A DNA stretch of 54,422 nucleotides from a virus: the IMG/VR virus record IMGVR_UViG_3300022745_000041, positions 1 to 54,422 of that record. One strand, written 5' to 3'. A model generated the notes under the pieces. That model was given only the letters and a program-made list of their open reading frames with translations, had not been told where the DNA came from and searched no databases. Each line of letters begins with the position of its first letter. Position 1 is the stretch's first letter. The translations under genes and the position numbers were made by a program. Of this stretch, positions 2,059-34,335 are shown one piece after another.

Positions 2059-4259
2059 TAGACCGACAACGACTGCTCTGCCAGCCGTTTGGTCCATTGG
2101 TCTCGCGAATAATACAGCACTCCGGGACGCCCACCGCTTGAGTTTTGCGGCTCAACGAACAGGCTTCCGGATTCTTGGAGCGTCGCGAGCACGTCTTTTC
2201 TTTCATTGGGTTTCAATTTCTTCAGCGGACTAGGGGAATGCAACATTTCATAACCCGTCACAATTCCCCGCTGTTCAACAAAACGTATCACCCTCAAACA
2301 ATCTCTCTCGAAATCTGACTCTGCGACATATAGGCCAACTTTCACGAGCATCATGTTCGTGAGCCAGTTAGATGTTTTGATTGCTAGGTTGACGTCGTCT
2401 AGTGTAATCGAAGGAGCATGTTGACCGCCACTCCTGGAGCACGCAAACAACAGTGCCAACTTATTGGTACGTTCTGCCGTCCGCTTCCAGATAGCGGCAC
2501 GGAAGTCGTCTTCGCCCGCCATAACCTTCTTATTGATATTGTCTCGATGTTCCGACGATCGTTCCCATGCCTCCAGCGTGTGCATCACAATCAGCGGTGT
2601 ATGTGCTTGGCCAGCCGTTCCGGCAAGGTCGCCGCTATGCGTCTTCAGGTCTAGCCAATGCGTCGCTTGGTCGAGAATGGATTGCGGCACTGATTGCTGG
2701 CTCGGTTCCTGACTGGCGACGTAGCCCCGGCCCTCGAATACCATGCACCGCCCCAGCAATCCCCCTTCGATCAACTCTCGTGTGATGTTCTCCCAAAATC
2801 CGTTCGTTGTGCATGTCCCATACAGCACAACGTTCGGGTATCGGATCGTGACTCGCTTAGTGCTGGCCAGCAATTTCGTCTTATAGAACGTTTGCGATGC
2901 CGGAAACAACGTTAGCAACTCACGCCCGACCGCCACCATGTGCGGTTGCGTCTGTGTGTTACGCATCGATACCAGCATGTGATGAATTTCGTCGATCTGA
3001 AGTAAGCAATTCGGAACTTCCGCAATGTATTTCGTGAGTCCTGAGTCTGAGCCGACATTGTCTTCGGTCAGGTCTTCTTTCTGAATCGCTGTCAGTATTT
3101 TCTTGTTCGTCATGCGTGCCGCGTCTTTACCGGCGCTGGTCTTCTCGACTCCAATCACGTAAACGTTCGGTCGTGTGTTTCGTTTATCAACAACCTTCTG
3201 ACCACAGAGTAGGCTCATCATCGCGATTGCGCCGCTCAACGCGAGTTCCGGCTGCGGGTCGTAAGCCGTGGCCAGCGTGTAATCGACGATCTCGCCAATC
3301 AGTCCTGGCGGACGGAGACAATCAGCGGGAAAGACGTTCGCGAGTTGTTTCGGATCCGGCTTGATCGGCTCAATCACTTTCGGCTGACTCAATAATCCGC
3401 TGATATCGACGTTGCTTGGCTGCTTCTCACGGTTATCAACCAGCAACCATCCTTCCGGCTTATCGCATGGTGTGGTTGCCGCTTGGTTCACTTTGCGAAC
3501 GACTTCGGATTCTGGCCAAGGAGGAAGGCAACTGAGGTTCCACTCTGTGAGATACCCCACCGCCTCCGCTTCGCTCAGATTGAATCCAGTCACGAGGCAA
3601 CGCGCCGCCCATAGCAAGCGATCGTGGCCATGCTGGCCACTAATTGAAACATCGAGCCGAGCCATATAGGAACGGATCCGTTCGTCTAACGGCGTTTGGA
3701 TTGTGTGCTGATAACTCAGTGAGCTTTTCGGAGAACTTGTTGCGGTTTGCTTTTTCTTGTGGTGTTTTGCAAATAGTCGCTGGAGTGCATCACCGGCAAC
3801 ACGTAACGCAGTCGAATCACTGATTTGGTTGCTAGTGAACGTAAAATACCGCTCATGATTGTAGACCTCGACTCCAGGCTGTTTCGATCCGTTTGTTGGC
3901 TTCTCGCCGATCTTAATTTTGTGCCATCCATTCGCTGGCCAGTCTCCTTTGCAAAAAATATGAACACCAGTTCCGCTCGGCGAAATTTCTGTGTAACTCG
4001 CGAAGTCTTCGACGATCTCTTGCGCCCAATCGGCTAACGAGCTGCCGACAATAGCCCCATCTAGGTCGATGCCGACCAATCCATCTTCTTTGCGGAACAT
4101 GAAACCGATGCGGTCGAACGCCTTCACGTCGTCAAACCGTGCCCACGTCGTCGGGTCGTTCGACCTCGCCCGCGTAATACCGTCAGCCTGAAGTGGTACT
4201 TTATTTTCATCCCAGCGCACCCAATTCGGGAGCGAGGCTAATTCTGGCGGGACGTCCAT
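2058..4259 (-). CDS. Primase-polymerase / helicase fusion (replication protein)
   Basis: A 733-residue two-domain replication protein. Residues 1-165 look like a prim-pol (AEP) domain: the metal-binding GIDLDGA motif at 63-69 and SPSGTGVH at 93-100. A helical linker (211-260, with PPWPESEVVRKVNQA) resembles the PriCT region that follows phage prim-pol domains. The C-terminal half has a Walker A-like GVEKTSAGKD at 370-379 and a Walker B-like LLQIDEI near 419-425, as in DUF3987-type primase-associated ATPases. It should prime DNA and unwind or load at the origin. No DNA polymerase gene was found, so the phage probably borrows host polymerase. The putative origin directly follows the stop codon. 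Confidence 0.85.
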   Translation of the reverse strand: MDVPPELASLPNWVRWDENKVPLQADGITRARSNDPTTWARFDDVKAFDRIGFMFRKEDGLVGIDLDGAIVGSSLADWAQEIVEDFASYTEISPSGTGVHIFCKGDWPANGWHKIKIGEKPTNGSKQPGVEVYNHERYFTFTSNQISDSTALRVAGDALQRLFAKHHKKKQTATSSPKSSLSYQHTIQTPLDERIRSYMARLDVSISGQHGHDRLLWAARCLVTGFNLSEAEAVGYLTEWNLSCLPPWPESEVVRKVNQAATTPCDKPEGWLLVDNREKQPSNVDISGLLSQPKVIEPIKPDPKQLANVFPADCLRPPGLIGEIVDYTLATAYDPQPELALSGAIAMMSLLCGQKVVDKRNTRPNVYVIGVEKTSAGKDAARMTNKKILTAIQKEDLTEDNVGSDSGLTKYIAEVPNCLLQIDEIHHMLVSMRNTQTQPHMVAVGRELLTLFPASQTFYKTKLLASTKRVTIRYPNVVLYGTCTTNGFWENITRELIEGGLLGRCMVFEGRGYVASQEPSQQSVPQSILDQATHWLDLKTHSGDLAGTAGQAHTPLIVMHTLEAWERSSEHRDNINKKVMAGEDDFRAAIWKRTAERTNKLALLFACSRSGGQHAPSITLDDVNLAIKTSNWLTNMMLVKVGLYVAESDFERDCLRVIRFVEQRGIVTGYEMLHSPSPLKKLKPNERKDVLATLQESGSLFVEPQNSSGGRPGVLYYSRDQWTKRLAEQSLSV

Positions 4260-4284
4260 GTCCGGATTCTTTCTATCGCGTTAG

Positions 4285-5760
4285 TTATTTGCTTAATGAC
4301 ATCTGCTTAAACATCCGTTCTTGCTGCTCAGTGTCACACTGAATACGTTTCGCCTTTTCAAGCACTGTCTGAATCATCGGAACTTCGATTTCCGTGACCG
4401 GAATATGAACATTGAGCGGTCGAGTTGATCCGATTCGGTTGGAGCGTTTCACGGCTTGCCAAAACTCCTCGTAACTGTCTTGCAGACCGGAGAATACTTG
4501 TCGAGTTGCGATCTGGAGATTCAGCCCAAAACCCAGGATTTTTGGTTTGCTGATCAGGACCTTGACGCGACCCGTTTTGAAGTCATCAATCAATCGCTGG
4601 CGTTCTTCAATCGGAGTGTCGCCGTTAATGGTTGCGGCATTCGGAAACACTTTTTCCATCGACTCCTGCTCGGCGTTGTAGTGGCACCAGATCAGCGTTG
4701 ATTCGTTTGGCCACGACGCCACGAGGTTCCGAATGAACTCCGGCTTCTCGGTCGCGATGTCTTCACCTTTCGACCGCCCCTTCGCGAGTTGCGACAACTT
4801 GCCACGCTGGCCAATGCCGCCGATGCCGTTGACGAACAATCCGCCCGTGATGTTTTGAACTTCCTTGCGTTGCTCGCACGTCAATTCAATGTGGTCGATG
4901 TGAATATTGATCGGTGGAATTGTTTCGCAGTTGTCTTTCCATCCGTAGACCGCTGGATTACTGAGAAACAGGCACCAGTGAGACAGATCTCGATAGAACG
5001 GCCCGATAGCGTGCGGCTTGATCTCCCAGCGGTTCTGAGTCTCACCACGGTTCACAAAGTACCTGGCAAGAAATTCGTTGACAGTCCGAAAGTGATCGCA
5101 AAACACCGCATGATTCGCATACTCAATTCGATCATTTGGCGCAGGTGTCCCGGTCAATGCGAGCTTCCATTCCAGTCCTTTGCCGAGTTCGATCAGTCTT
5201 GTGCCCCATGCCCCGTAATGGCTCTTAAGTAAACTCGATTCATCCAGCATCAGCCCGCCAAGATTTCCGACTTCAATGTCATCGCGGATCGCTTCATAGT
5301 TCGTAATCGCGATGCCTTTCTCGTTAGTCATCCACGATTGCAGCTCAGCAGCCCGAATCTGATTGATGACGAGGTCAGGATAGAAACGTTTAGCTTCTGC
5401 TAACGTCTGTGAAATGACCATCAGCGGAGACACGATCAAGACGAGCTTGTCCGGCATCGCCTGAGCCGCTGCTTGTGCGACCTCCAATAAAATCGAAGTC
5501 TTGCCGAGTCCGCATTCCGCGAAAACCGCAAACTTCCGCTTCCGGATCGCCATTGCGACGATGTCGCGCTGGTAGTCGAATAGGTAATCAGATGGCAACC
5601 ACTCACACTGACGCTCGGCATGTTGTTCGCCGCCGATCGCTTCCGCGTATTCATCGGGAACAACGGCTGTGGTCCCCTTCCATTGGTACGTCGGCACTTT
5701 TTTCAGCCGCAGGAACTTGCGATAGTCCGCCATCGCAGACGTGTTGAAATCAAGCAACAT
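4285..5760 (-). CDS. SNF2-like DEAD-box helicase
   Basis: A 491-residue SF2 ATPase of the SNF2 type common in phages. Walker A is ECGLGKTS (82-89), motif II is LMLDESSLLKS, motif III is LTGTPAPN, and a C-terminal RecA domain ends in QAVKRSNRIGSTRP (motif VI). ATG 5760 is chosen because it overlaps the stop of the DNA methylase gene at 5750-6649 (10 bp overlap) with GAGG upstream. The tight coupling with a methylase is a frequent phage arrangement. The role is probably in replication or recombination remodelling; the exact substrate is unknown. Confidence 0.88.
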   Translation of the reverse strand: MLLDFNTSAMADYRKFLRLKKVPTYQWKGTTAVVPDEYAEAIGGEQHAERQCEWLPSDYLFDYQRDIVAMAIRKRKFAVFAECGLGKTSILLEVAQAAAQAMPDKLVLIVSPLMVISQTLAEAKRFYPDLVINQIRAAELQSWMTNEKGIAITNYEAIRDDIEVGNLGGLMLDESSLLKSHYGAWGTRLIELGKGLEWKLALTGTPAPNDRIEYANHAVFCDHFRTVNEFLARYFVNRGETQNRWEIKPHAIGPFYRDLSHWCLFLSNPAVYGWKDNCETIPPINIHIDHIELTCEQRKEVQNITGGLFVNGIGGIGQRGKLSQLAKGRSKGEDIATEKPEFIRNLVASWPNESTLIWCHYNAEQESMEKVFPNAATINGDTPIEERQRLIDDFKTGRVKVLISKPKILGFGLNLQIATRQVFSGLQDSYEEFWQAVKRSNRIGSTRPLNVHIPVTEIEVPMIQTVLEKAKRIQCDTEQQERMFKQMSLSK

Positions 5761-6708: not shown

Positions 6709-7356
6709 TTAATACGCCTCAGCCTCTTCCCTGGTCACGAAGAAGTGAATTCCTCCAGTGCATTCAATCATGAAATCGTCACACCACTGATCGCAATGAA
6801 CCGTTTCACCGACGCGATATTCTGTCTTGCCGTCGTGTTGACTAATTCCGACTTCGCCGCCAAAGAGTTCCAGCACCTCCACGAACTCAGCGCGACACTT
6901 CCGGCCAAATGCGTTTGATCGCTTGGCGGCCTCTGGTACTTTCAGCTTGACGATCACGCCGTCGTTGCATTTTTTCCAACCGATCACGGAACCCTCTCGC
7001 GGTGCAACGCGAGTTTTCGCGATGGCCAGCTCCACGCCTACCGCCCCGCGTAGGTTCGCATCGAGTAAGTCCGCATCGAGTAAGTTCGCCCCGCATAAGT
7101 CCGCCCCGCATAAGTCCGCCCCGCGTAAGTCCGCATCGAGTAAGTTCGCCCCGCATAAGTCCGCCCCGCGTAAGTTCGCCCCGTGTAAGTTCGCCCCGCA
7201 TAAGTCCGCCCCGCGTAAGTTCGCCCCGTGTAAGTTCGCCCCGCGTAAGTCGGCCCCGCGTAAGTCCGCATCGCATAAGTTCGCCCGAATTCCCGTCGTA
7301 ATTCCTCGCAACCACTCCAGATGTTTTTGTAACACTTCCTTCAAATCAATAACCAT
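6709..7356 (-). CDS. Pentapeptide-repeat protein with C-terminal domain
   Basis: A 215-residue protein. Residues about 23-107 are A(D/N)LxG-type pentapeptide repeats, which fold as a right-handed quadrilateral beta-helix. A C-terminal domain of roughly 100 residues ([18 protein letters not shown] onward) matches the arrangement of phage pentapeptide proteins with a DUF5758-like tail. ATG 7356 has an AAGGAGCGAG site. The repeat DNA is a 15-bp minisatellite (7020-7280). Pentapeptide proteins can mimic DNA and inhibit gyrase, but that function is not shown here. The gene is bracketed by 16-bp direct repeats, suggesting cassette insertion. Confidence 0.82.
7020..7285. repeat. 15-bp tandem minisatellite
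   Basis: Around 17 imperfect units of the type CGCATAAGTCCGCCC, in phase with the pentapeptide code of the gene on the minus strand. Unit variants (CGCGTAAG, CGTGTAAG, TCGAGTAAG) recur in blocks, pointing to expansion by unequal recombination or slippage. Confidence 0.85.
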
Positions 7357-7364
7357 AATCTCGC

Positions 7365-7380
7365 TCCTTGAGTTAAAACG
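7365..7380. repeat. 16-bp direct repeat flanking pentapeptide cassette (copy 2)
   Basis: Identical to 6662-6677. On the minus strand it covers the last Phe codon and stop of the helicase gene plus the ribosome-binding leader of the pentapeptide gene. Confidence 0.7.
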
Positions 7381-9970
7381 GAACCTCTGCCCCAAACTGC
7401 AACCCTGCGTAATCAAACCCGCTCTCGTCATACGCTAACGCGACCGCCTCCTGTTCGTCTGCCCATGTTTCCGGAACGTCGTCAAGCTCTTGCTTGATGA
7501 TCTTGTTGAACCGGCCTTGCGGCACCACCCAAATACGATTCGCAATCGCTACGGCCCCGCGTTTCCAGAAACTAATAGCGCTATCAATTCGGGATTCGTT
7601 AAGGTCTTCTTCGAGCATGGCTTTCGATCGTTCACGCCACCATTGGTCAGCATTGCGCCGAGCAAAACCATCATGGTCTAGGCATACCCATTCGCTAATT
7701 GTCTTAACTGTCAGATTGCCGCCACCTTCTGCTAACTGGCATACATAGTCTATGCGAAGCGTGTTTGGAGCGTCAGGCGCGTTGCGTTTTTCGTGACGGC
7801 TGAACGTCGCGGACTCAACCAGATACTCTGTCGGCTCGACTTGGCTTTCAAGAATTGCTGACGTCGTGTCGGCGTTGGCTTCGTGTTTTGGTTTCGGGGG
7901 ATAGGCGAATTGACATTCCGGACAAACAACAGCGCTGATCGGAATTGCTTCTCCGCAGGCGGGACATTCCTTGGTCGGCATACCGCCGCCGGTTTCCTTC
8001 TTGGGTTTCTCTGGTGGGATTCCGTATGTTGGAGAGTCTATGGGGCCGTGACGTTTAACGTTTTCGCCGAAATCTAGGACCGCACAATCTCGCTTATCAG
8101 GATGAACTCGAAAGCCTCGCCCCACGATCTGCGCGAACAATCCCGGTGATGCTGTGGCGCGGAGAACGCAAATGCAGTCGATTTGCTTCGCGTTGAATCC
8201 GGTCGTGAGAACATCAACGTTGACGAGCCATCGCAATTGGCCGCCCTTGAATCGTTGCAGTGTGTTGGATCGTTCAATTGCTAACGTTCCGCCCGTGACC
8301 AGCCCAACGTCTTCGCCCGACAAACTGGCCAGTCTATCTGCCACATGTTCGGCATGTTTCACGCCGCTACAGAACACAAGGATTGACTTTCGGCCCGTGG
8401 CCTTTTCAATGATTTCAGCAACTGCCGCGTTAACGTTGTCGTCAGTATCGAACAGCGATTCTGCTTGTCCCGCGTCGAACTCGTGAGTTCGTGCCACGAT
8501 CTTGAGACTGCTTGTGTCAAGCTCCGACGTCATCGGCTTATTGACGATCTGGCACAGATATCCTTCGCTCATCAAACGACTAACGCTGGCCGTGTAGCAA
8601 ACTTTTGTCAGCAAGTTTTCAGGTCCGCACAGTGCGCCGGTTCCCGTGCGGAATGGAGTCGCCGTGAGTCCGCCGATAACCATGTGCGGGCACAGAGATT
8701 TCATTCCTTGGAAGAATGTACGGAATCGGCCTTCGCCATCTGGCGGCAAGAGGTGGCAATTGTGAACTAACACGCCGCCAGCAAAGTAAGAAGGGTGTCC
8801 GCTGACTTGCAGATTGTAGACAATTCGCGTGCCTTCTTGTTCGTTACGCGAATCACCTTCCAGCCAAACGAACTCAACAAAGCATCCTTCTTGATGTCCT
8901 GCTGCTTCCGGTTGCCCACATGCCCCGTTCCGTCCACTTCGATTCCAATCTTCAGTTTTTGGTTCCCGATGTCGAGCTTGTAGCAGTGCGGATATCCGTC
9001 CTTCGGCTTTAATTTCGTCGGTATCGCTACCTCTAGTTGCCAGTCCGGCCCCAAGATTTCTGCCAGTAGCGTTACTGGAACGGGAGTTGGTTTTCCGTTG
9101 CCGCCTTGAATGATCGGCTTGTGCCCTTTCCGCTTTTGCGTATCGCTGATCTTTTGTCGGACTTCCGGGCGGCTCGCTGGGTTGTCGTGGAGCTTTGCGC
9201 AGCGAATCGAGCAAAACCTCGTTCGCTCCCAGGTTCTTCGTCCCTGTATTTTCATCACCGGACTTTCTGGGGATCGGCGATAAGCCTTGGGATGAAACAT
9301 CTCGCCACATTTCAGACACAGTTTCGATATCAGCGAGATATTCGCCAACGTGTAAGGAACCAGCGGCAACCCACCCTCTTGCGGTAAAGACTGGATGATT
9401 TGAGGTACATTTGAGACGCAGTCCATTGCTTAATCCAATCGTAATAGGTTGTTTTACTGAAACACTTATGGCATCAACAACACCAACACCACTAGCGTTA
9501 TATACTACATCACCTACGCGAACGAATTCAAGACATTTATTGCCTGACGGAGTTGCGATTGGTGTGTCACCCGTAAAACATTCGTCAATTAAGCAAACAT
9601 CTCGACGTCCAAACAAATGCGACTTATCGAAACAGGACTGAATGCCCGCGAATACAACATCTTGGTCGGTATGCCGCTTGCCGAGTCCTGCGGAGTACAG
9701 CCCGACATCAACGCCCGGCATCAAGGCGCGGCACTCGTCTGCGTTCTGTTGAATCAATTCCTTCGACGGCTGTAACACCATCGCACGCCCGCCGAACGCT
9801 AAGACTTTGCGGAGCACTGCCGCTATCACGAGAGACTTCCCCGCACCGGTTGGTAAAACCACACACGGCGATTCGGTACGCATACCGGCCCATAATGCGT
9901 TAGCCGCTTCCTCTTGGTAGTACCTCAGCGTGATTGCTGATTGCTCGGAGCCGAACGGTAGCGACTGCAT
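7373..9970 (-). CDS. SF2 DEAD/DEAH-box helicase interrupted by an intein
   Basis: The precursor is 865 residues. Removing the intein (residues 131-404) leaves a 591-residue helicase. Walker A PTGAGKS is near residue 41. Motif II is rebuilt as LIDECHLLPP across the splice junction. Motif [13 protein letters not shown], motif [14 protein letters not shown] and motif [10 protein letters not shown] follow. A zinc ribbon CPACG...CPEC comes late in the protein, then a DUF7-like helical tail of unknown role. Inteins prefer such active-site motifs. Splicing is needed to restore the DEAH-type box, so the unspliced protein should be inactive. ATG 9970 follows directly on the stop of the upstream small gene (TAAATG). 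Confidence 0.9.
8759..9580 (-). mobile_element. Intein in helicase motif II (274 aa)
   Basis: The intein starts at Cys1 (codon 9580-9578, [13 protein letters not shown], block A). It has a block B with [12 protein letters not shown], a block F-like [18 protein letters not shown], and block G VLVHN with penultimate His and terminal Asn (codon 8761-8759). The next extein residue is Cys, as required for the canonical splicing reaction. Between blocks B and F the intein frame reads as a polar, low-complexity stretch (residues about 80-235) and contains no LAGLIDADG motif. That region is where a second frame encodes the homing endonuclease. Confidence 0.92.
8767..9426 (-). CDS. Homing endonuclease (Zn finger / NUMOD3 / Vsr-like) nested out of frame in the intein
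   Basis: A 219-residue protein wholly inside the intein DNA, on the same strand but in another frame (intein codons about 52-271). It has CLKC (37-40) with FCSIRC (71-76), a probable zinc finger; a NUMOD3-like [19 protein letters not shown] (86-104); and a nuclease core LDIGN (151-155), IEVDGTGH (162-169), DIKKD (177-181) and GWKVIRVT (188-195). This is the pattern of the Vsr-like EDxHD family of homing endonucleases. The stop lies 6 bases before the last intein codon. The ribosome-binding site before ATG 9426 is weak (GGAT), so internal initiation or a later start is possible. Confidence 0.85.
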   Translation of the reverse strand: MDCVSNVPQIIQSLPQEGGLPLVPYTLANISLISKLCLKCGEMFHPKAYRRSPESPVMKIQGRRTWERTRFCSIRCAKLHDNPASRPEVRQKISDTQKRKGHKPIIQGGNGKPTPVPVTLLAEILGPDWQLEVAIPTKLKPKDGYPHCYKLDIGNQKLKIGIEVDGTGHVGNRKQQDIKKDALLSSFGWKVIRVTNKKARELSTICKSADTLLTLLAAC

Positions 9971-18516: not shown

Positions 18517-20043
18517 TCAAGCGGCACACATCGCTTTCCGCATCTCCGCGATTGCCCAAACTCGCATATCGTCAGGGAAGTCTTGCTTGAGCGGGTATTG
18601 CGTGAATGTGCCGTCAGGATTTCTGCCAACCGCGAACAAAGCATACTGGCCAGATGTAATGCATTTCTTCATGCTGTCGAGCCAGAAGAAAAGAGCGTCG
18701 GTTTCGATCGGTTCTTCGAGCTTCGCCGGTTTAGACGGCTTCGTTTCATAGTGCTCACACATCAATCGCGCAAACTCCATCGCGCCCGCATCCATGAATG
18801 GCGTGAGCTTGCGTCCGTGTTGGTCGGTCGCATCACCTTGTTCCGCCGCTCGGTCGTAATAGAGTTGGCCAGCCGTGCTATAGGCCGAAGCGTTGCGGCA
18901 GTTCTTACCCGGAGCCGACGACCAGCGGTATCCATATTGCGGCGTCGTGAATTCGCAATAGTCGCCGGGAGGTCCGGCGCATTCCATTAACCGCCGACCG
19001 AACTCCAAGTCGAATCCATCCATTGCCTCTTCGGGATAGCCTCCAACCTCTTCCCATAGGTCGAGATGGAACGCCCACGAGCCATGTAGGCCAGTTGGTA
19101 GCGGGTTTATTTCTTCGCGTAGGTCGGACCATTCGAGCAATCCAACCGGATGCTTCCGGTGACAATCAACAACTTTTCGCGACGGCACACTGTAGCGGTG
19201 ATTTACGAGAACCTTTGCGTGTGCGTCCACGTGGTTCGGTAAATATACGTCATCATCTTCAAGGATCACGACAGCGTCATAGCCTGCGTTTTTTGCAGTG
19301 CGGCATAGGTAGTTGAACTTCTGGCCGAACGTTGCGAAGCGTTTCGGAACGCATAGCATCGACCATTTATCGCCATTTTGCGAATCCCATGACCCGCTGT
19401 CTTCTAGCATAAACAAATGCGTCTCGTGTTCCGTGACTTGTGCTTGGAACTGCGCCAGCGTTGTTTGCAGGCATTCAGGTCTTCGATAGCTTGGGCAGAT
19501 GCAGGCAATGCGGAGCTTCTTTTGTGGCTCAATGCGTTCCATGACAATCAGTCCGTTGTTGTTTTCGTAGCGTTCCACGATCGACCATTCCGGGTGTTTC
19601 GCGTGCCACCGGTTGATCCCGTCTAGCAATCCTGGCCCGCCATCTTCGCCGACAGTTCCAAATGTTTCTGTATCGTGGAACACGAGGTACTTGCGAACCT
19701 TGTCGGCATGTTGCGAGAGTTCCTCGAAAACCTGATAGGACGTGTGTAGCGTGTCAATGAAAAGCATGTCGAAAGGATCTTTGAACATGAGTGCGAGCGT
19801 GTCGCGTTGCATAAACGTGACAGTTTTCGACTGTAGTTTGTCCGCATAACCACTCGCTGGATTGATGTCGAACGACCGGACATAAGCTCCGCTCGCGGCG
19901 AATGCTGTCGTACTCACCGCGTCCCGCGTCCCGAACTCAACAACCTCTTCGCACCTTGACGCAAGCCTGCGCAGCGTTGGCAAATGCTCATTAATGTCTG
20001 ACGGTGTTTCGCACGCGATACGATATAACTCTTCAATCGTCAT
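18517..20043 (-). CDS. Methyltransferase-glycosyltransferase fusion (508 aa)
   Basis: The N-terminal part (about 1-175) has a Rossmann methyltransferase pattern: VVEFGTRDAVSTTAFA, VRSFDINPASG and MLFIDTLHTSYQVFEEL, as in Methyltransf_24-like enzymes. From about residue 178 a family-2 glycosyltransferase follows (IACICPSYRRPECL, then DAVVILEDDDVYLPNHVD with the metal-binding DxD, and GGYPEEAMDGFDLEFGRRL). A C-terminal stretch of about 100 residues is unassigned. The fusion could transfer and methylate a sugar. AAGGAG precedes ATG 20043. It is adjacent to a second glycosyltransferase gene and a Ser/Thr-rich protein gene. Confidence 0.8.
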   Translation of the reverse strand: MTIEELYRIACETPSDINEHLPTLRRLASRCEEVVEFGTRDAVSTTAFAASGAYVRSFDINPASGYADKLQSKTVTFMQRDTLALMFKDPFDMLFIDTLHTSYQVFEELSQHADKVRKYLVFHDTETFGTVGEDGGPGLLDGINRWHAKHPEWSIVERYENNNGLIVMERIEPQKKLRIACICPSYRRPECLQTTLAQFQAQVTEHETHLFMLEDSGSWDSQNGDKWSMLCVPKRFATFGQKFNYLCRTAKNAGYDAVVILEDDDVYLPNHVDAHAKVLVNHRYSVPSRKVVDCHRKHPVGLLEWSDLREEINPLPTGLHGSWAFHLDLWEEVGGYPEEAMDGFDLEFGRRLMECAGPPGDYCEFTTPQYGYRWSSAPGKNCRNASAYSTAGQLYYDRAAEQGDATDQHGRKLTPFMDAGAMEFARLMCEHYETKPSKPAKLEEPIETDALFFWLDSMKKCITSGQYALFAVGRNPDGTFTQYPLKQDFPDDMRVWAIAEMRKAMCAA

Positions 20044-20053
20044 CCCTGACTCC

Positions 20054-21328
20054 TTACGCAGACAACCACGCAGACCCCGGCACAACTGCCATATTTAATT
20101 CTTTCGCAATGGCTGCGATAGATTCAAACGATGGCAGATGACACTCAATCGCATTATCAACATTATGTGTATCGCGACAAGCCTTCATCCATAACATATC
20201 ATTACGAAGTCGGTCGGCTCGGTGCTGTTCCGTGATCTCTGGCGGACAATAAGCCGCGCCTCGATTCCAAAAGTCATGCCATCCGCTCACGTCGCGAAGA
20301 CACACAACCTCGCGTCCCAACGATTTGAATAACCGGCCAATCCATTCATCACCGCCATAGCCTCGCAAGCCCTGCGGAATCTTGCCGCTTGGCCATGCCG
20401 ATCGACGACAAGCGAAGAACCACGCACCGCACATCTCTACCGGGATCGCAGCGAGGTTGCTTGGGTTCGGTTCAATGCTCCACTGGCCAAAGGCATTACC
20501 CCAAGTTGGTTTCATGCCGGTTGCCATCACCTCGCCGCCATCGCTCAGCAGTTTTGCCGTGGCCAGCCCGTCGAAATCGAGATTGTCGGCAAACCATTGA
20601 ATGAGCCTGAACAACGCACCCGGTTCGATCAAGACGTGAGAGTCAATTACGATAACAATCTCGCCCGCCGCGTGATCGAATACCGCCGCCTTGGGCGGGA
20701 ATGTTCCGCGTTGCGTGCATTCAACAACGCGAACAACGCCCGGATTCTGTCCGGAGATGTGGTCGAGATGTTTACGTTGTTCCGCGTCTGATCCATTATC
20801 GACGATAATGATTTCGGTGTCGGCCATGACCTCCGCGTGAAACATTAACAGCGATCGCACCACCCATCGCACCCGCATTGCATCATCCACTGACGCCATT
20901 CCGATTGTCAATTTTTTCGTCGGCAACTTGTGTGGTTGGCGTAGCGTGCATGTCGAGCACGCTATCGGAGCTTCCGTCCCGTCTGCTGGAGTCACGGGCA
21001 AGATTGTGCATAGTGAACCAACCTGCGAACCATGCTGGCATTGAAACAACGGCATCATCCGCCCGCCGTTAGCTTTCTCCTCTGGTGTCGATGCGCAGGT
21101 CTTGCACTTGATTTCTCCGTTTGGCTTGCGGTGAATACAGCGGCAACCGTCTAGTTGCGCGGATTGCATCGCCCACGAACGCCGGTATTGCTCCAACGTC
21201 GGTTTTCCGGTGTATGGTTTTGTTTCCGTTTCGTCGTGCGGATCAATGCCGTTATAGATACGGAGCACGCCATCGCTTGGCGGATAGAAGCCGAACTCTT
21301 CTCTGAAATGTGCTTTACCGAGTTGCAT
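20054..21328 (-). CDS. GT2 glycosyltransferase with Cys-rich N-terminal domain
   Basis: A 424-residue protein. Residues about 40-130 have spaced Cys pairs (CRCIH, CKTC, CSTC), likely zinc ribbons. A GT-A domain then starts TIGMASVDDAMRVRWVV, with TEIIIVDNGSD and VIVIDSHVLIEPGAL; the DSH triad is the metal-binding form typical of polypeptide GalNAc-transferases. GGDEWIGRLFKSLGREV matches the acceptor-side motif. The likely reaction is transfer of a sugar to Ser/Thr of a protein or to a glycan. AGGGGAAGCAAGG lies before ATG 21328. The next gene upstream encodes a mucin-like Ser/Thr tract. Confidence 0.8.
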   Translation of the reverse strand: MQLGKAHFREEFGFYPPSDGVLRIYNGIDPHDETETKPYTGKPTLEQYRRSWAMQSAQLDGCRCIHRKPNGEIKCKTCASTPEEKANGGRMMPLFQCQHGSQVGSLCTILPVTPADGTEAPIACSTCTLRQPHKLPTKKLTIGMASVDDAMRVRWVVRSLLMFHAEVMADTEIIIVDNGSDAEQRKHLDHISGQNPGVVRVVECTQRGTFPPKAAVFDHAAGEIVIVIDSHVLIEPGALFRLIQWFADNLDFDGLATAKLLSDGGEVMATGMKPTWGNAFGQWSIEPNPSNLAAIPVEMCGAWFFACRRSAWPSGKIPQGLRGYGGDEWIGRLFKSLGREVVCLRDVSGWHDFWNRGAAYCPPEITEQHRADRLRNDMLWMKACRDTHNVDNAIECHLPSFESIAAIAKELNMAVVPGSAWLSA

Positions 21329-21348
21329 CCTTGCTTCCCCTGTTTTGT

Positions 21349-22008
21349 TTAACTATTGCTGCAAGTTCCGTTGTATGTTTGACCCATAAACGTTCCTGTT
21401 GCGACAACGGTTCCCGTCAGCGTGCTATAAAGTTTGTCGTCAGTATCGCCAAACGCCGATCCATTCGCATAAGTAATGCTGCAAGCAAGCGTACATCCAG
21501 AGCATGTGTCGTTTATCATCGCCCAAAAGCCTGCAAAATAAGTCCAATCACATGCACCGGAGCAACCCCCGGAGGTCGATGATGAGCTGGACGTAGACGA
21601 GGAACTGGACGAAGATGAACTGCTGGACGAAGATGAGCTGGAAGTCGTTGTCGTGGTTGAGGTTGTGGACGACGACGATGATGACGACGAGGAACTGGAC
21701 GAAGATGAACTACTGGACGAAGATGAGCTGGAAGTCGTTGTCGTGGTTGAGGTTGTGGACGACGACGATGATGACGACGAGGAACTGGACGAAGATGAAC
21801 TGCTGGACGAAGATGAGCTGGAAGTCGTTGTCGTGGTTGAGGTTGTGGAACTTGTCGGCCCCGGCTTCTTTTGCAACAACGCTTGACCGCTCGATTCGGC
21901 CCGTGGTGCCGTTGATATCGCGTTGAAGACATCTCGCTTGAGTGCCGCGAAGCCATGCTCCAGGCGTTCCATGCGTTGCTGTTGAGTTAGTCCAGTGATG
22001 TTGTACAT
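21349..22008 (-). CDS. Mucin-like Ser/Thr-rich virion protein (219 aa)
   Basis: The N-terminus (1-50) has a helical MYNITGLTQQQRMERLEHGF start. Residues 52-147 are almost purely Ser and Thr (about 96 residues), arranged as three 30-residue blocks. A Cys-rich domain of 72 residues follows, with six cysteines and two NGS/NGT-type sites, and looks like a secreted beta domain. It starts at TAATG directly after the hub gene, so it is likely a tail-tip spike or fibre. The Ser/Thr tract is an ideal O-glycan acceptor, and two glycosyltransferase genes follow at once. Glycosylation is inferred, not shown. Confidence 0.7.
   Translation of the reverse strand: MYNITGLTQQQRMERLEHGFAALKRDVFNAISTAPRAESSGQALLQKKPGPTSSTTSTTTTTSSSSSSSSSSSSSSSSSSSSSSTTSTTTTTSSSSSSSSSSSSSSSSSSSSSSTTSTTTTTSSSSSSSSSSSSSSSSTSSSSSTSGGCSGACDWTYFAGFWAMINDTCSGCTLACSITYANGSAFGDTDDKLYSTLTGTVVATGTFMGQTYNGTCSNS
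21598..21866. repeat. Three 90-bp tandem repeats
   Basis: Blocks beginning at 21601, 21691 and 21781 are nearly identical (one base difference noted, CTGCTG/CTACTG), encoding the Ser/Thr blocks on the minus strand. Identity at the DNA level, not only in amino acids, points to recent expansion. The other strand gives acidic open frames, which are shadows. Confidence 0.9.
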
Positions 22009-24356
22009 TAGCCTTGACGCTCCCCTGTTTGGGGATCGAAGTAGCCGACGAATGTGGTCCGTGTTCCACTCGCGAAATCTCGACCAAGCAACGCTTGTTG
22101 TTGATCGGTCAGGCCGTGCGCTCTCGCCGCGTCTGGCAAACTCCTTGGCGTGAATTCCACGAATGACGTCGTGCGATAAGTCGGCACCAACGGCTTGATC
22201 TTCAATGCTTTCTTGAGTGCGTCAACATCTTGCCCCATGATCTGCAATTGATCGGAACTCATAACGAGCGTTGTCGTCTGATCGGTGAAGTTGTATTCCG
22301 TTTCCGTGAGCCATGCCCCGGCGGATTCCCAGCCCGTTGTGAGCGTTGCTCCGTCAGCGTCAACAGCTTCGATGTTGATTCGCTTCGAGAGAAACAGATA
22401 GTCCCATTTCATCCCTGAGATATTACACCCGCCCGCGAAGATAATATCACACAGTTGAGCGTGAAGGTTAGTGGCCAGTGCCGTATATTGCGCAACACGG
22501 TCTAAGCCCCACGATATAGCATCGCCTGCGGTATGCGTTGCTGTTGCTGCCGATGTTGTCCATGTCAAACCGCTAATGCCTGTCACCGTTAGCGTTTCGC
22601 TGCCAATCAATGCCGTGAATGGCGTTGCCGGGAAGCCGATTGAACTTGTGACAGCGAACGACGTCGCGCCGATAGAAGTGCTGGCCGTGATAGTTGTCAT
22701 CTGTCCTGACAGTGACGGATTCCGCATGTATTCGAGCGAAAGCAACTCATCGTTGATGCGTTTTGTCTTGCTGATGTTAGCCACGCTGTATGCGGTCCCG
22801 CTGTAGCCGCTTGACGGATAGCGGACCATCAACGGATTTCCAGGCGTGCAATAAATCAACTTCACGTCATCGGGCACTTCGCTATGCGGCCCCGTGAGTC
22901 CGCCCACAAGTGGCGGGTTTGGGTTGTAGCGATTGGCGTAGACGCCATCCGGCCAATAGATAACGCCATCACGATAGTCGAAAGACGCCCCACGCACGGT
23001 CTGCCACCGACCGTCGCCCATGTTGTTATGTGGCCAGCGTGCTAGAAAACAAGGTTGATAGGTCGTTTCGTAACCTGTGCTATGGATCGTGTAGCCGGTA
23101 CTCGGTGAACCCGATATCGCGTCCACGTTCGGCGCGGTGTACGGGTCTTTCATAAGCGGGAGAATCCGCCGTTTGTTGGTATCAGTGACTTGGTATCGGT
23201 TCTTGCCGTAAACGAGCACGCCCGCACCCCAGGACTCCAGAACCGGCCCCGTCGATATGTCCGTGAGTCCGCCGTTCAACAGCGTGCATTCGGCACCGGG
23301 ATAGATCGTCGCTCCGCTTGCGTGCGCGTACTGTGTTGCAACCACGGTCAGTGTTGTGCCGCTGATGCCCGTGATCTCGATAACCTCGCCGTCACAGATT
23401 GCGAAGCCGGGATCAGTGAAGCCGGTTGCGGACGTGACGCTCAGTGTTGTGGCACCGGCGGAAGCACTACTGGCCAGTGTGGTCGAGATTGTCGGGTGAG
23501 CGTGGTATTCATCCCATTGAATCGCAACTGGCGGACCATAGATTTCAACAGCCGTGTAGCGATCCTCAACCGACCGATGCAATTGAAACGATAACACAAC
23601 GTCCGTCGCGGTCGGATCGTTCAACGTCAAGTCGACTTCGGTTGCCGACTTCAGATTGACGATCCGCCAGTAGCGTGTTCCCGGCTCCCATACTAGCCGA
23701 TGCGTTGGGTAGTATTGCCTCAAGAGTCTTTGAATCGCGGAACGAACGCCCTCAGATTCACAGACGAACTTCTCTTGCGGGATCGTTGTGAGGGCGTTCA
23801 AGTCGCCGATGACATACGGCACGTCACCATAGTTGCAACTGTATTCAGACCGCAGCGCCACAGTCTGGTAGTCGAGCATCAATTTAATGATCTTGCCGAC
23901 CGTCAGGCCGTAATCGGCTTGCCATATCCAGTCTTGATCATTATCCACCCAGCAATTGACCGCAAAGAATGGTCGCCCGCCCGTGACAGGAACCGGCAAG
24001 CCACCACTGAGTTCCCAGCCATATGACATTAGCGGGAAGTTGGTGTAGCCAGTGGGATCAATCGCGGTGAACTTCACACCGATCGAATCGCTGCCGGGTT
24101 CGATATGCACGATCCCTTCAAACAACGGATCGACGCCACTCGCGTAATCGTCGGCGCGTAGCCGAATCAGTACGTGATCAGCCACGTTACCGATCGTTGA
24201 ACCGCTGATGATGTGCTGCGGCACCTGAGCCGAGAACGTCAGCGTGTGCGGGTTCGTCATCGACGTTTTCAAGACAATGTCGCAAATGCCAGCGGCGTCA
24301 ATGTCGATCGACTGCCAAGCAGAACCATCCCAGCGATCGAGATACGGAATAGACAA
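22008..24356 (-). CDS. Tail hub/baseplate protein (782 aa)
   Basis: A large protein with an N-terminal strand-rich region (PYLDRWDGSAWQSIDID, DPLFEGIVHIEPGSD) of the kind found in hub proteins. It is followed by central domains with repeated TTLSVTSATGF and TSFAVTSSIGF motifs (paired beta modules) and a C-terminal part with YRTTSFVEFTPRSLPD. It lies after the tape-measure gene, as tail-tip genes do. The start is TTG at 24356, preceded by a hairpin whose loop carries GGGGC. An ATG in another frame nearby is not used. Function within the tip is inferred from order. Confidence 0.72.
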   Translation of the reverse strand: MSIPYLDRWDGSAWQSIDIDAAGICDIVLKTSMTNPHTLTFSAQVPQHIISGSTIGNVADHVLIRLRADDYASGVDPLFEGIVHIEPGSDSIGVKFTAIDPTGYTNFPLMSYGWELSGGLPVPVTGGRPFFAVNCWVDNDQDWIWQADYGLTVGKIIKLMLDYQTVALRSEYSCNYGDVPYVIGDLNALTTIPQEKFVCESEGVRSAIQRLLRQYYPTHRLVWEPGTRYWRIVNLKSATEVDLTLNDPTATDVVLSFQLHRSVEDRYTAVEIYGPPVAIQWDEYHAHPTISTTLASSASAGATTLSVTSATGFTDPGFAICDGEVIEITGISGTTLTVVATQYAHASGATIYPGAECTLLNGGLTDISTGPVLESWGAGVLVYGKNRYQVTDTNKRRILPLMKDPYTAPNVDAISGSPSTGYTIHSTGYETTYQPCFLARWPHNNMGDGRWQTVRGASFDYRDGVIYWPDGVYANRYNPNPPLVGGLTGPHSEVPDDVKLIYCTPGNPLMVRYPSSGYSGTAYSVANISKTKRINDELLSLEYMRNPSLSGQMTTITASTSIGATSFAVTSSIGFPATPFTALIGSETLTVTGISGLTWTTSAATATHTAGDAISWGLDRVAQYTALATNLHAQLCDIIFAGGCNISGMKWDYLFLSKRINIEAVDADGATLTTGWESAGAWLTETEYNFTDQTTTLVMSSDQLQIMGQDVDALKKALKIKPLVPTYRTTSFVEFTPRSLPDAARAHGLTDQQQALLGRDFASGTRTTFVGYFDPQTGERQG

Positions 24357-24750: not shown

Positions 24751-27700
24751 TTATACCCCAGCCGAACTAATGGCGCGCAGTCTAGCAGAATTATCTTCTC
24801 GTGCGAACTGCGCTGCCGTGTTATTGATATGACCTGTGATCTGAGCCACTACGTCATGCAGTGCAACATGCCGATTCGCTTGGTCGGTGACTAGCTTCGT
24901 GAGCGATCCCAGCGCTGCGACAACTTCCGCGTTCGCTTGTGCCTGAGCGTTAGCCATTTTGGCCATCGCGGACTCTGCGTTTTTCAGTGCTGCCGCCGAG
25001 GGGTCTTGTCCGCTCGGCGTCCGTTTAGTATCCGCTACACGATCAACATCTTGCTGGCCAGTGATCTCGGCCCGCTTCTCAGTTCTAGCCGTAACAACAA
25101 CTTCACGAGGTTTCGTCAGGTCATCAAGCTCCGCTTTTGCGTCCGCGTCGTCGATCTCGACCGGCATTGCGATCGTATCACAGCCACCGGCTCCGTTGAG
25201 TGCTTCGGGTTGCTGTGGTTGCGGGTCGGGTTGATTGTCTTCACCGAACAACACCGGTTCACGCTTGCGAACCAACGGTTGATTGTCGTCGAACAGCGGT
25301 TGCAACGGTTTCGGCAATTTCGGGCCGACAGGACGCCTACGAATCTCGGCAATTTCTTGCTCAGCCTTACGCATCCTGTGAATTAAAGCCGCCATCTCTT
25401 TGCCGTTATTTGGCAGCGGAATATCGTTTTGCTCCGCGTACTGAATGGCTTTGTCTTCGGCGTCAATCGGGTCGGCTTCTGGCTCGATTTCAACCGGCTT
25501 GGCTGGTTGCTCAAGTTTTTCTTTCGCTTTACGGAAGTCGATCGCGTCCCGATCTTGGTGTTGCCTTCGGTTCGCGTCGCCTTCCGCTTGTCGGTCAGCT
25601 TTTCGGTTCTCTACATCTTGCTGCTTGGCCCGTGCGGCATCGCGACGACGTTGCGCCACCTCGGCGGCATCACGAGGCGGATTAAGGTCATTAAGCCGCT
25701 TCTCGGCATCTGCTTTCTCGCGGTCGGCGTCCGCTTTCTGCTGAGCCATTAACCGCAATGCCTGCGCGGCCTGTGGATCAATTTGGCCACGGCGTTCGGC
25801 ATCATCAACAGCACGCTGCGCAATGCGGTTCCTGGCGTCTGCAAGTTGCCCGCCAGCTTCGCCGCGTTGTTTGTCTTGCTGGAATTTATCAAACGCATTC
25901 CGCCGAACGTCTTTGACGTCTTCGGGCTTCACGTCACGCCCGGCTTTCTTCTCGGCATCGCGAAAATTCTTTTCTGCGTCGTCTTGGACCTGCCTTGCGG
26001 CGTTTCGCTCGATGTCCTTTGGCTTCACGTTCTCGACAAGTTTTTCGCCAATCGCTGCCATGCGAGGGTCAGCTTTGAGCGCTGCTTGAAGCCTCGCGAT
26101 TCTGTCGGCCTCTTTTTGTTCCGCGAGCCGCTTTTCAACTGCGTCAGCGTCGAGCAATGCTTTCTCGCGAGCTTTACCGACCGCTTGTTCTGCCGTGATT
26201 CGCAATTGTCGTAATCGCTCGACATCTTCCACCGCTTGCCGCTGTTGTCGCGTCCGATTCTCAATCGCCTGTTTTTGCAAGTCAGCTTCTGCCTTCAGCC
26301 GCTCTTGCGTGGCTGCCTGCCATGCTGCCTGTGTCTCCTTGCGTGCTGCCACGTCTTTAGCGGTTACTCCAGCGTCGGCCTTAGCGTCCGCGTCTCTCGC
26401 GATTTGTTCACGTTTTTTAGCTTCACTCAGTGCGGCTTGCTTGTCGTCCATCAACCGTTGATCAAGGCTGGCCAGTTTCTCTGCCTGCGATTTTTGCAAT
26501 GCTTCTTGCTCAGCGATTGATTGTCGTCGCGTGGCAGCCTCGGTCTCGATTTGTGTCATCACGGCTGCGTTGTAATCATCGCGAGCTTTCTTCTTTTGCT
26601 CGTCTGTCAAGGCCGTGTTTGATTGCGCAGCATCAGCGACAAACTTCGCGACCTCAACCGCTCGATTGGCGTGTTCGTTGAGCCTCTCACGGTTGAGTTC
26701 TGCATTACGGCGATCTTGCTCAGCTTGCGGGTCATCGGTTCCTTTTGTGATACGTGATCGCTCTTGCTCGATTGACAGAATCTCTTGGAGCAAACCAGCC
26801 TGCCTGCGAAATTCGGTGTTTTGCTCACGTTGCTTCGTGAGCGATATATCAACCGCTTGTACGTTTTCAGTAATTAGGTTTTTGTGATCTTGTTCCACTT
26901 GACGTCGATCATCTGCGATGCGTTTTTTTTCGCGGTCAAGTTCCGCCTCTTGTTTAGGTGCCGATCGTTGCATGACCTGCAATCGTTGTCGCGCTTCAGC
27001 AAGCTCTCGCTCGGCATCCTGAATTTCCGCGATAGTTCTGAGCCGTTTTCGATGTTGTTCCTCATATTGGATTTGTTCAGCCAATGCGGTTGCTTTATTT
27101 TTTGCAACGATTGAATCAACCTGCGCCTGCGCTGCCTTCAGTACCTCGATTTCCTTTTCGCGGTTCTTCTTTAATCGTTCCGGATCGGCCCCATCCGCAA
27201 TTGCTTCCTTCGGCACAAAGTTGCCAATGTTCTTTCCGCCGTTTTCGATATCGAACTCAATATCGCTAATGAGTTTTTTGATCTCAGATAGCGATGTGAT
27301 TTCTTTCAAATGTTGCTGCTGTTTGCTGACCGCTCTCGCGGCATCGGCATCATCTAACGACTCAAAGGCTTTCTTTCGTTCCGCTACTTTTTCAATCTGA
27401 TCGGCAAGCTGTTTTGCTTCCGCTGTTGCAGCAAAAAAGTAATCCCCCATCTTTGCGAAAACGCCGAAACGTTGCTCAAGTTGATTCAGTCCCACTGCCA
27501 GAATAGAAACAACGCCAGCAAGACCAGCGCCGAGTCCCAGCGATTGCAAAAGCCCAGGGATGTTGTTCACGATCCCGCGTAGGCCATACTGTAGGTCGTC
27601 GGCGGCATAAGCAAGCTGCATTATACCTTGGCCGGATAGCCCGCCCGCCTTATTGATCTGACCACCAGCCGTATTCATCGCCGATCCGGCGCGATGCGCC

Positions 27701-28878
27701 GCCGCACCGACGGCATCTAAGCTGGCCACTGATTGTTGATTCGCCTTAATGAGCCGCTGAGCCTCTTGGCCAGCCTGTCCCTCTTGGTTTGCCAGATATC
27801 CAAATTCATGAGCAGCACGAAGAGCGGAACGGGCAACGTTCTCTTCCTCGGTCGCAAGATGCCGAAAATCAGCCGCCACGGAATCAAATCCGTCTGCCTG
27901 AGCAAGCAGGCTGGCGATTTGCGATCGTGCCGCCTCGGAATTGTTTCCCGTCTTGCGGATCGCTTCAGCGGCCTCGCGCGCCTTGCTTGCTAGATGATCG
28001 TTATTGTCGGCTGATGCCCAAAACTCAGTCGCTTTCGTTGCCGCCGTGACAGCCTCTTCTGATACCTTGCGAAATTCGCTAAGCGTCTTTTCAACGCCAG
28101 CCGCTTCGATAGTCGCGGTCGCTTTGACGGCGTCAATCTCTTTGATTTTGGCTTCAAGTATCTCGACCGCATTCGAGCCGCGCAGAACGTCTTTCGTGAT
28201 GTTGTCGGCAATCAAACCGAGCGGTGCCGCGTTCGGATTGATGTCCGCCGCGTCACGTAATGAGTCTGCAAACTGGAGCGCCGCGACTTGATCCTTACGA
28301 AGCACGTCTTCGATCCGCTTCAGCATCGCGAGTTCAGATTCGCTGAATCCTTTCGCGTGATCAGCCGCAAGCGATCGCATCGCCTCGTGAAGAATCTCGG
28401 TTGATTTCGCGAGCTTTGCCGTAAGCGCATCGGCTTGCTTCAGTGCCGCTTGCCGCGCGGTGTCGTCAACGGGCGGCACTGCTGCCGTGTCAATCGGCTG
28501 AACATCATTGACAACCTTTTGCACAACCGGCGGAGGCGTGTCGCGAATGATTGCTTGAGCCGCTTCCGCCGCTTGTTGTTGCCCTGGCGTTAGCGGCTTG
28601 GTCGCGTTGTCGAGAAACTTCGCTTCGGCGGCTTTGTGGCGTTGCTGGAGTTGCTCAAACTCAGCCGCCGTTTTCGCGAACTTCTCATGTTGAATATCGA
28701 GAAAGATTGCCGCGTTGTCACGTGCGAACTTCTCTTCAATCGCACGTTGTTGCGCCAGCATCTCTTGATGCTTTTGGTCAAGCGTCTGTTTTGTGGACTC
28801 CGCACCGGCCACAACACTGGCGTTGCCCGCTTGCGTTTGATCGTCAACACCAACTTGAATATCGACACGATTAGCCAT
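24751..28878 (-). CDS. Tape-measure protein (1375 aa)
   Basis: The longest gene in the window. It is almost entirely helical, with very long Glu/Lys/Arg/Gln heptad repeats, and has a hydrophobic stretch near residues 450-470 (GLGAGLAGVVSILAVGLNQL) that can serve as the membrane-inserting part. It sets tail length; at about 1.5 angstroms per residue the tail would be roughly 200 nm. The C-terminal 200 residues are more globular (PVGPKLPKPLQPLFDDNQP). Start ATG 28878 follows the previous stop directly (TAAATG), so it is coupled. Confidence 0.88.
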   Translation of the reverse strand: MANRVDIQVGVDDQTQAGNASVVAGAESTKQTLDQKHQEMLAQQRAIEEKFARDNAAIFLDIQHEKFAKTAAEFEQLQQRHKAAEAKFLDNATKPLTPGQQQAAEAAQAIIRDTPPPVVQKVVNDVQPIDTAAVPPVDDTARQAALKQADALTAKLAKSTEILHEAMRSLAADHAKGFSESELAMLKRIEDVLRKDQVAALQFADSLRDAADINPNAAPLGLIADNITKDVLRGSNAVEILEAKIKEIDAVKATATIEAAGVEKTLSEFRKVSEEAVTAATKATEFWASADNNDHLASKAREAAEAIRKTGNNSEAARSQIASLLAQADGFDSVAADFRHLATEEENVARSALRAAHEFGYLANQEGQAGQEAQRLIKANQQSVASLDAVGAAAHRAGSAMNTAGGQINKAGGLSGQGIMQLAYAADDLQYGLRGIVNNIPGLLQSLGLGAGLAGVVSILAVGLNQLEQRFGVFAKMGDYFFAATAEAKQLADQIEKVAERKKAFESLDDADAARAVSKQQQHLKEITSLSEIKKLISDIEFDIENGGKNIGNFVPKEAIADGADPERLKKNREKEIEVLKAAQAQVDSIVAKNKATALAEQIQYEEQHRKRLRTIAEIQDAERELAEARQRLQVMQRSAPKQEAELDREKKRIADDRRQVEQDHKNLITENVQAVDISLTKQREQNTEFRRQAGLLQEILSIEQERSRITKGTDDPQAEQDRRNAELNRERLNEHANRAVEVAKFVADAAQSNTALTDEQKKKARDDYNAAVMTQIETEAATRRQSIAEQEALQKSQAEKLASLDQRLMDDKQAALSEAKKREQIARDADAKADAGVTAKDVAARKETQAAWQAATQERLKAEADLQKQAIENRTRQQRQAVEDVERLRQLRITAEQAVGKAREKALLDADAVEKRLAEQKEADRIARLQAALKADPRMAAIGEKLVENVKPKDIERNAARQVQDDAEKNFRDAEKKAGRDVKPEDVKDVRRNAFDKFQQDKQRGEAGGQLADARNRIAQRAVDDAERRGQIDPQAAQALRLMAQQKADADREKADAEKRLNDLNPPRDAAEVAQRRRDAARAKQQDVENRKADRQAEGDANRRQHQDRDAIDFRKAKEKLEQPAKPVEIEPEADPIDAEDKAIQYAEQNDIPLPNNGKEMAALIHRMRKAEQEIAEIRRRPVGPKLPKPLQPLFDDNQPLVRKREPVLFGEDNQPDPQPQQPEALNGAGGCDTIAMPVEIDDADAKAELDDLTKPREVVVTARTEKRAEITGQQDVDRVADTKRTPSGQDPSAAALKNAESAMAKMANAQAQANAEVVAALGSLTKLVTDQANRHVALHDVVAQITGHINNTAAQFAREDNSARLRAISSAGV

Positions 28879-33735: not shown

Positions 33736-34335
33736 TTACGCCGTTGCCTCAAAAATCAATTCGAGCGTTACTGCGTCGATGCCGCTAACGGAATCGACGT
33801 GAACCGCGAAGATATCGTTCGCCGCAATCGCGGCTGACCATCCGGGTAAAGTGTCTGTCGATGCCGTCTTTGTGTCCGTGAGCGTTGGTTTGTCGTCAGT
33901 GATTGCGTCCGCGATCGTGGGCATTGTTTGGCCGAATGATCGCTTCCAAACATCAACAACAATCGAGCCAGCGTCAGAACTGGCCAGTCTCCAGCCTGTC
34001 AACGTTCCGCCGAACGGACAGATTCCATACGCCGTCGATCCAACCGCAATTCCACCACCCTGGCCATCGAATCGGACAGTGATAACGCGGACGATCGCAC
34101 CGTCGCCGGGAGGTCCGGTTTCACCTCGTGGGCCTTGCTCGCCTTGCGGGCCTTGTTCACCGGGTGGGCCTTGCTCGCCTTGTGGTCCAGGCTCACCATC
34201 GGCTCCCGCCGGTCCCTGCGGTCCAGTCCCGCCGCTCAGTACGATCGTTTGCGACTCAGCGACGGTTGTGACGCCAATCGCGTCATCAACGGGAGTGACG
34301 ACAATCTGAGTGGTTTCAACAACGACGTTCGCCAT
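33736..34335 (-). CDS. Collagen-like tail-fibre protein (199 aa)
   Basis: Residues 35-76 contain uninterrupted G-x-y triplets ([19 protein letters not shown] onward), which form a collagen triple helix. The N-terminal part (1-34) is an anchor with strands. The C-terminal 120 residues form a beta domain ending LELIFEATA, resembling trimeric fibre heads. This is a common phage fibre design. It sits in the fibre cluster. Confidence 0.8.

Follow-up and report, generated by a model that had tools for sequence, protein, structure and literature searches.

Bacterial serine-rich repeat adhesins are encoded by a Ser-rich acceptor gene followed by genes for dedicated glycosyltransferases (GTs), and their glycans are built stepwise, by initiation and extension. 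The initiating enzymes are of the GtfA/GtfB type, which have a GT-B fold, and these systems also include accessory secretion and anchoring to the cell wall. In animals, polypeptide GalNAc-transferases usually have a C-terminal lectin domain of the ricin type. Phages, too, may decorate their own particles: the mycobacteriophages Che8, Corndog and Myrna are reported to use GTs of their own to glycosylate capsid and tail-tube proteins (Freeman et al. 2023, as described in PMC12363180 and PMC12619734). Here, we analysed a window of 54,422 bases, the whole record of a tailed phage of uncultured origin, in which the terminase is located at 49783-51141 and transcription runs mostly on the minus strand. 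On this strand, a tape-measure-like gene, a 782-residue gene, a Ser/Thr protein, a first GT and a methyltransferase-GT fusion follow one another in this order:

24751-28878, minus strand: long gene, presumed tape measure
22008-24356, minus strand: gene of 782 amino acids, last of the presumed tail genes, directly upstream of the Ser/Thr gene
21349-22008, minus strand: mucin-like Ser/Thr protein of 219 amino acids, presumed glycan acceptor (open reading frame)
21571-21855, minus strand: tract of 95 consecutive Ser/Thr codons, residues 52-146
21596-21849, minus strand: 90-bp tandem repeat within the Ser/Thr tract, 2.8 copies, 98% matches
21352-21570, minus strand: Cys-rich C-terminal module (CSGACDW...) of the CxGxCxW type, scored with the module profile
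20054-21328, minus strand: GT-A glycosyltransferase of 424 amino acids, polypeptide-GalNAc-transferase-like, presumed initiating enzyme (Pfam GT2, profile against the PDB, AlphaFold model)
20636-20644, minus strand: D229-S-H231, motif of the metal-binding type, D and H invariant in an alignment of 46 sequences
20276-20356, minus strand: GGDE...H351 block, residues 325-351, equivalent of GGEN...R.GH.F in GalNAc-transferases
18517-20043, minus strand: methyltransferase-GT fusion of 508 amino acids, start ATG 20043 (AlphaFold model, VIA)
19519-20043, minus strand: class I O-methyltransferase-like domain, residues 1-175
18520-19518, minus strand: second GT-A domain, with a DDD motif, presumed to act in glycan extension

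The window resembles the adhesin loci in that a Ser-rich gene is followed by GT genes, but nothing in it matched GtfA/GtfB-type initiation, cell-wall anchoring or accessory secretion. From the sequences, their homologies, the folds and the conserved pairing of the genes, we read the three genes, with a probability of roughly three in four, as a phage O-glycosylation cassette that would initiate, extend and cap glycans on a virion protein, namely on its Ser/Thr tract. The Ser/Thr gene starts on the stop codon of the 782-residue gene (TAATG) and ends 20 bp before the first GT, and the most likely start of the fusion, ATG 20043, is preceded by the ribosome-binding site GGAG; given these features, the Ser/Thr gene, the GT and the fusion look like one operon. 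Its position after the tail genes makes the Ser/Thr gene a candidate structural gene, and the gene order would place its product at the tail tip. A host in the Planctomycetota is suggested by the matches to Gemmata and other genomes. Elsewhere in the window, a collagen-like triple-helix repeat protein (33736-34335, Pfam 9.3e-7) represents a second presumed virion protein of low complexity. A helicase-like gene (ResIII/Helicase_C, 7373-9970) has an apparent intein at residues 164-404 (Intein_splicing 2.1e-8). There is also a 15-bp tandem repeat at 7041-7286, with the consensus CCGCCCCGCGTAAGT in about 16 copies, which overlaps the open reading frame 6709-7431.

The original prediction described about 96 nearly continuous Ser/Thr residues; the tract in the 219-residue open reading frame is in fact uninterrupted and comprises 95 residues, 71 Ser and 24 Thr, while the phage background is 7% Ser and 7% Thr. 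The protein is comparable with mucins, both being Ser/Thr-rich tandem-repeat proteins. All ten Ser/Thr codons occur within the tract, and TCN and AGY codons are mixed inside a repeat unit, which argues for selection on the protein, that is on Ser/Thr identity, and not for one simple codon repeat. Furthermore, the near-identity of the 90-bp units points to recent growth of the tract by duplication. The last 73 residues of the protein, CSGACDWTYFAGFW...C, carry the CxGxCxW module, which is also found between the poly-Thr linkers of proteins from phage contigs and Gemmata prophages. Against a profile made solely of modules from GT-retrieved loci, this C-terminal end of the window protein scored 13.9 bits, whereas the highest score among 2000 shuffles was 8.4; against a profile of all modules it scored 16.0 bits, compared with 9.1 for the shuffles. 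Of the 119 Ser/Thr-rich genes in GT-anchored loci, 12 had CxGxC.[WFY], and of the 2133 other genes there, none did. Matches of the Ser/Thr protein to SOG2, Presenilin and MutL (Pfam, NCBIfam) were rejected as artefacts of low complexity. Poly-Ser/Thr linkers can also work without sugar, which counts against a glycan acceptor.

The Ser/Thr gene is followed by the GT2 enzyme with a DSH motif that had been predicted: the product of 20054-21328 exceeds the Pfam cut-off for GT2 (1.3e-9) and has the motif D229-S-H231. Pfam GT2 was matched by all 46 aligned relatives (E<=0.1), to which the window enzyme is just 25-32% identical, and the residues invariant in this alignment include D229, H231, G325, G326 and H351. 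In comparisons of the family profile with the PDB, TarP, TarS and other GT-A enzymes matched the N-terminal half, and polypeptide GalNAc-transferases matched over nearly the full length; the full-length profile placed TarP and TarS above GALNT7. With the profile of the C-terminal half, six sequences of the PDB reached E<=10, and every one was a polypeptide GalNAc-transferase (best GALNT7, 9e-4), and the GGDE...H351 block aligned with GALNT7, T10, T4, TgT3 and PGANT9. The AlphaFold model of the enzyme has a mean pLDDT of 66.6, with a core mostly above 90 at residues 141-260. In Foldseek, GalNAc-T2 accounted for the first nine matches of this model (4.6e-13), and it was again the top match in VIA, where 268 residues aligned with Z 20.8 and rmsd 4.2; WrtF, RmlT and some further GT-A enzymes lie within one Z unit of this value, which amounts to a tie.

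Both programs therefore recover a GT-A fold, and the alignments recover the D-x-H motif and the C-terminal His of the GGE...GH.F block. With the eukaryotic polypeptide GalNAc-transferases (CAZy family GT27), the window enzyme appears to have in common the GT-A fold, the D-x-H motif and a GGE(N/E) block with a conserved C-terminal His. It differs from them in its low identity (12-17%) and in the ricin-type lectin domain, of which the Pfam scan found no match at the C-terminus; it is also encoded by a phage, with the genes of enzyme and presumed acceptor adjacent. The predicted likeness to GalNAc-transferases holds at the level of profile and fold, but not as an exclusive one, given the Z tie with WrtF and RmlT and the higher rank of TarP and TarS with the full profile, and the sequence matches are statistically modest. 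In motif and modelled fold, the enzyme resembles GT27, a likeness short of established membership of that family. Another reading is DNA hypermodification by phage glycosyltransferases, to which a weak match to TAGT (TET-associated GT) could point. We regard such a role as highly improbable here: the TAGT match is not significant (E 0.094), the enzyme genes come after tail genes, the Pfam scans of a subset of ORFs contained no TET or hydroxymethylation gene, and the profile of the C-terminal half of the first GT comes closest to protein O-glycosyltransferases. The first GT also has a Cys-rich N-terminal extension with zinc-ribbon-like spacing (residues 1-135, 20924-21328). The fusions of loci L094, L097 and L364 end in a Cys-rich tail of a different kind (CxxC...CGC...).

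The methyltransferase-GT2 fusion that had been proposed next to the GT lies at 18517-20043, outside 20054-22008, and the AlphaFold model bears out both of its parts. Residues 1-176 matched O-methyltransferases in VIA (8c9v, Z 19.0; MeT1, 17.5; MycF, 16.5), and residues 175-375 matched GT-A enzymes (Z 18). MeT1 and MycF are sugar O-methyltransferases, and the domain also resembles O-methyltransferases of small molecules. In sequence, the methyltransferase part falls under the Pfam cut-off (21.2 against 26.3 bits); it has the class I fold and retains SAM motif I, EFGTRDAVST. This motif looks degenerate in several homologous domains, and methylation is therefore perhaps not universal. By profile, the second GT matched heparosan synthase (1.4e-12). 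In other phages, homologues of the methyltransferase domain are fused to the GalNAc-transferase-like GT instead, which ties the three activities together.

Scans with single sequences yielded no relatives, whether in viral contigs (GT, fusion, upstream tail gene and Cys module as queries) or in phage records (GT, fusion and tail gene). For this reason, profiles and a degenerate DNA pattern for Ser/Thr-CxGxCxW were used. Among terminase relatives (L002-L067) and their larger records, homologues of the cassette were not detected. The DNA pattern of the module first yielded L091/L097, which are Gemmata-type prophages, and L094; most of its matches in genome contigs were chance frames and were discarded. 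In L091/L097 and L094, homologues of the window enzymes are encoded after a poly-Thr protein, with values of 1.6e-24 for the first GT against L094, 1.1e-24 for the methyltransferase domain against L097 and 2.9e-24 for the second GT against L094. In L094, a Sulfotransfer_2 domain (5.1e-12) fused to Methyltransf_24 is encoded at 3239-4381, directly downstream of a GT-methyltransferase, in a phage that also has a poly-Thr protein; a sulfated phage glycan, as a further decoration, is possible there.

These loci had been chosen by way of the Ser/Thr protein, so the test of the association was made on loci retrieved with the GT alone. Two GT-only scans of uncultured viral contigs gave 338 and 359 confirmed relatives, and 151 loci were analysed, with a Ser/Thr-rich gene defined as one with at least 15 Ser/Thr in 25 residues on the same strand and with loci clustered at 70% GT identity. 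Co-occurrence had been proposed as a check, and it is strong: a Ser/Thr-rich gene was located at position -1 in 16/40 lineages, at -2 in 6/38 and at -3 in 6/37, compared with 1/148 at positions +1 to +5 (Fisher test for -1, 1.3e-8). With clusters at 95%, the -1 gene was Ser/Thr-rich in 35/77 (1.6e-18), and cut-offs of 13 and 17 Ser/Thr gave a similar enrichment. Such a gene was found within three genes upstream in 23/40 lineages and downstream in 2/40; about 40% of lineages have none within three genes upstream, and some of these contigs end early. The background, from 590 kb of terminase-anchored phage loci, was one Ser/Thr-rich gene in 868. The GTs that seeded the family profile had come from searches by way of Ser/Thr proteins, and this seeding by itself can hardly explain the positional enrichment. 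Genes were called as longest ORFs, and such calls are unreliable in loci of high GC. In L211 and L267, Ser/Thr-rich proteins have all three catalytic domains encoded next to them, and profile matches show the same for L214/L360 and L216. Read by eye, the upstream proteins are otherwise dissimilar (esterase-like, protease-like, leucine-rich-like, beta-repeat) and have only the Ser/Thr tract in common, which is what a role of the tract as substrate would predict. The co-occurrence supports GT and Ser/Thr protein as a putative pair of enzyme and acceptor.

This recurrent pairing with proteins of dissimilar architecture has to be weighed against the mycobacteriophage precedent. The GTs there are reported to be likewise phage-encoded and to act on structural proteins of the phage, but the acceptors are capsid and tail-tube proteins. 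The window enzymes might similarly glycosylate other virion proteins, capsid or tail tube, with the Ser/Thr protein as a bystander; in favour of this, Che8, whose virion proteins are reported to be glycosylated (PMC12363180), has a GT2-Methyltransf_24 fusion. This fusion has the same pair of domains as the second window enzyme, in reverse order, and is a weak relative of its GT (15 bits). The pairing itself speaks against such an arrangement, and no GalNAc-transferase-like GT was detected in the Che8 GT cluster; we consider it improbable.

In Planctomycetota genomes, nine members of the GT family were found in 7 of 392 genomes. A Ser/Thr-rich frame was present within 1.5 kb of 7/9 members but of 2/30 other GT2 genes (Fisher 7.5e-5), the latter drawn from four of the seven genomes; these counts take any reading frame, so that shadow frames are possible in either set. 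A Gemmata genome has two copies of the GT, each preceded by a poly-Thr CxGxCxW protein. In L364, a high-GC Gemmata locus, the poly-Thr gene is visible on direct reading and is missed by the longest-ORF caller. Two members, L372 and L377, have no called Ser/Thr-rich gene nearby; in L372, the next gene after the GT encodes a nucleotide-sugar transferase-methyltransferase protein. In a Planctomycetota genome, a 2573-residue RHS-repeat protein (L376, 2-7720) is directly downstream of the family GT. The association with this family, and not with other GT2 genes of the same phylum, is left unexplained if the enzymes act on the host surface instead, modifying a lipid-linked or polysaccharide glycan for superinfection exclusion or serotype conversion, with the Ser/Thr protein an unmodified flexible linker that is the last tail gene by chance. 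GT2 domains are common in the synthesis of surface glycans, the second GT resembles heparosan and chondroitin synthases and TarS, and there is a weak PHROG match to GtrB-like enzymes (1.1e-5). However, neither enzyme has a strongly hydrophobic segment (maximum KD19 1.53 and 0.74), unlike the membrane-bound GtrB, and we consider action on the host surface unlikely.

For the cassette on a virion protein, we infer the identity of the acceptor, the order of the steps, the sugar, the methylation, the location in the virion and the benefit. The Ser/Thr protein would be a virion protein, probably of the distal tail, with its 95-residue linker as acceptor. The first GT, which has the DSH, GGDE and His351 motifs, would use a nucleotide sugar of the host to attach the first sugar to Ser/Thr. 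Of the domains of the fusion, the DDD-type GT would extend the glycan and the methyltransferase would cap it with an O-methyl group. The benefit may be a rigid, protease-resistant linker, shielding or contact with a receptor.

In 50,697 phage records, tblastn with three members as queries did not detect the GT family, and one query found nothing in plasmids. The literature searched, which excluded subscription papers and preprints, contained no description of a mucin-like/GalNAc-transferase pairing in phages, which is not proof of novelty. Since the same pairing occurs in many uncultured phages, phages probably make sugar-coated tail proteins of their own. We lean slightly towards a wider view: uncultured tailed phages, including phages and prophages of Planctomycetota, would have a dedicated mucin-type O-glycosylation. 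Their tail operon would encode a GT27-like initiator and, next to it, the Ser/Thr tandem-repeat protein that it modifies; extension, methylation and, in the one phage L094, a sulfotransferase would be added, and the phage collections examined to date would lack the system. If this is true, an enzyme family different from those described, together with a mucin-like acceptor, would be widespread in uncultured phages, and bacterial viruses would provide small counterparts of the enzymes with which mucin glycosylation begins. The Gemmata prophages would offer a direct test system, and the adjacent pairs of acceptor and enzyme ready-made substrates. The view of tail proteins, of host binding and of shielding from proteases or antibodies would change accordingly.
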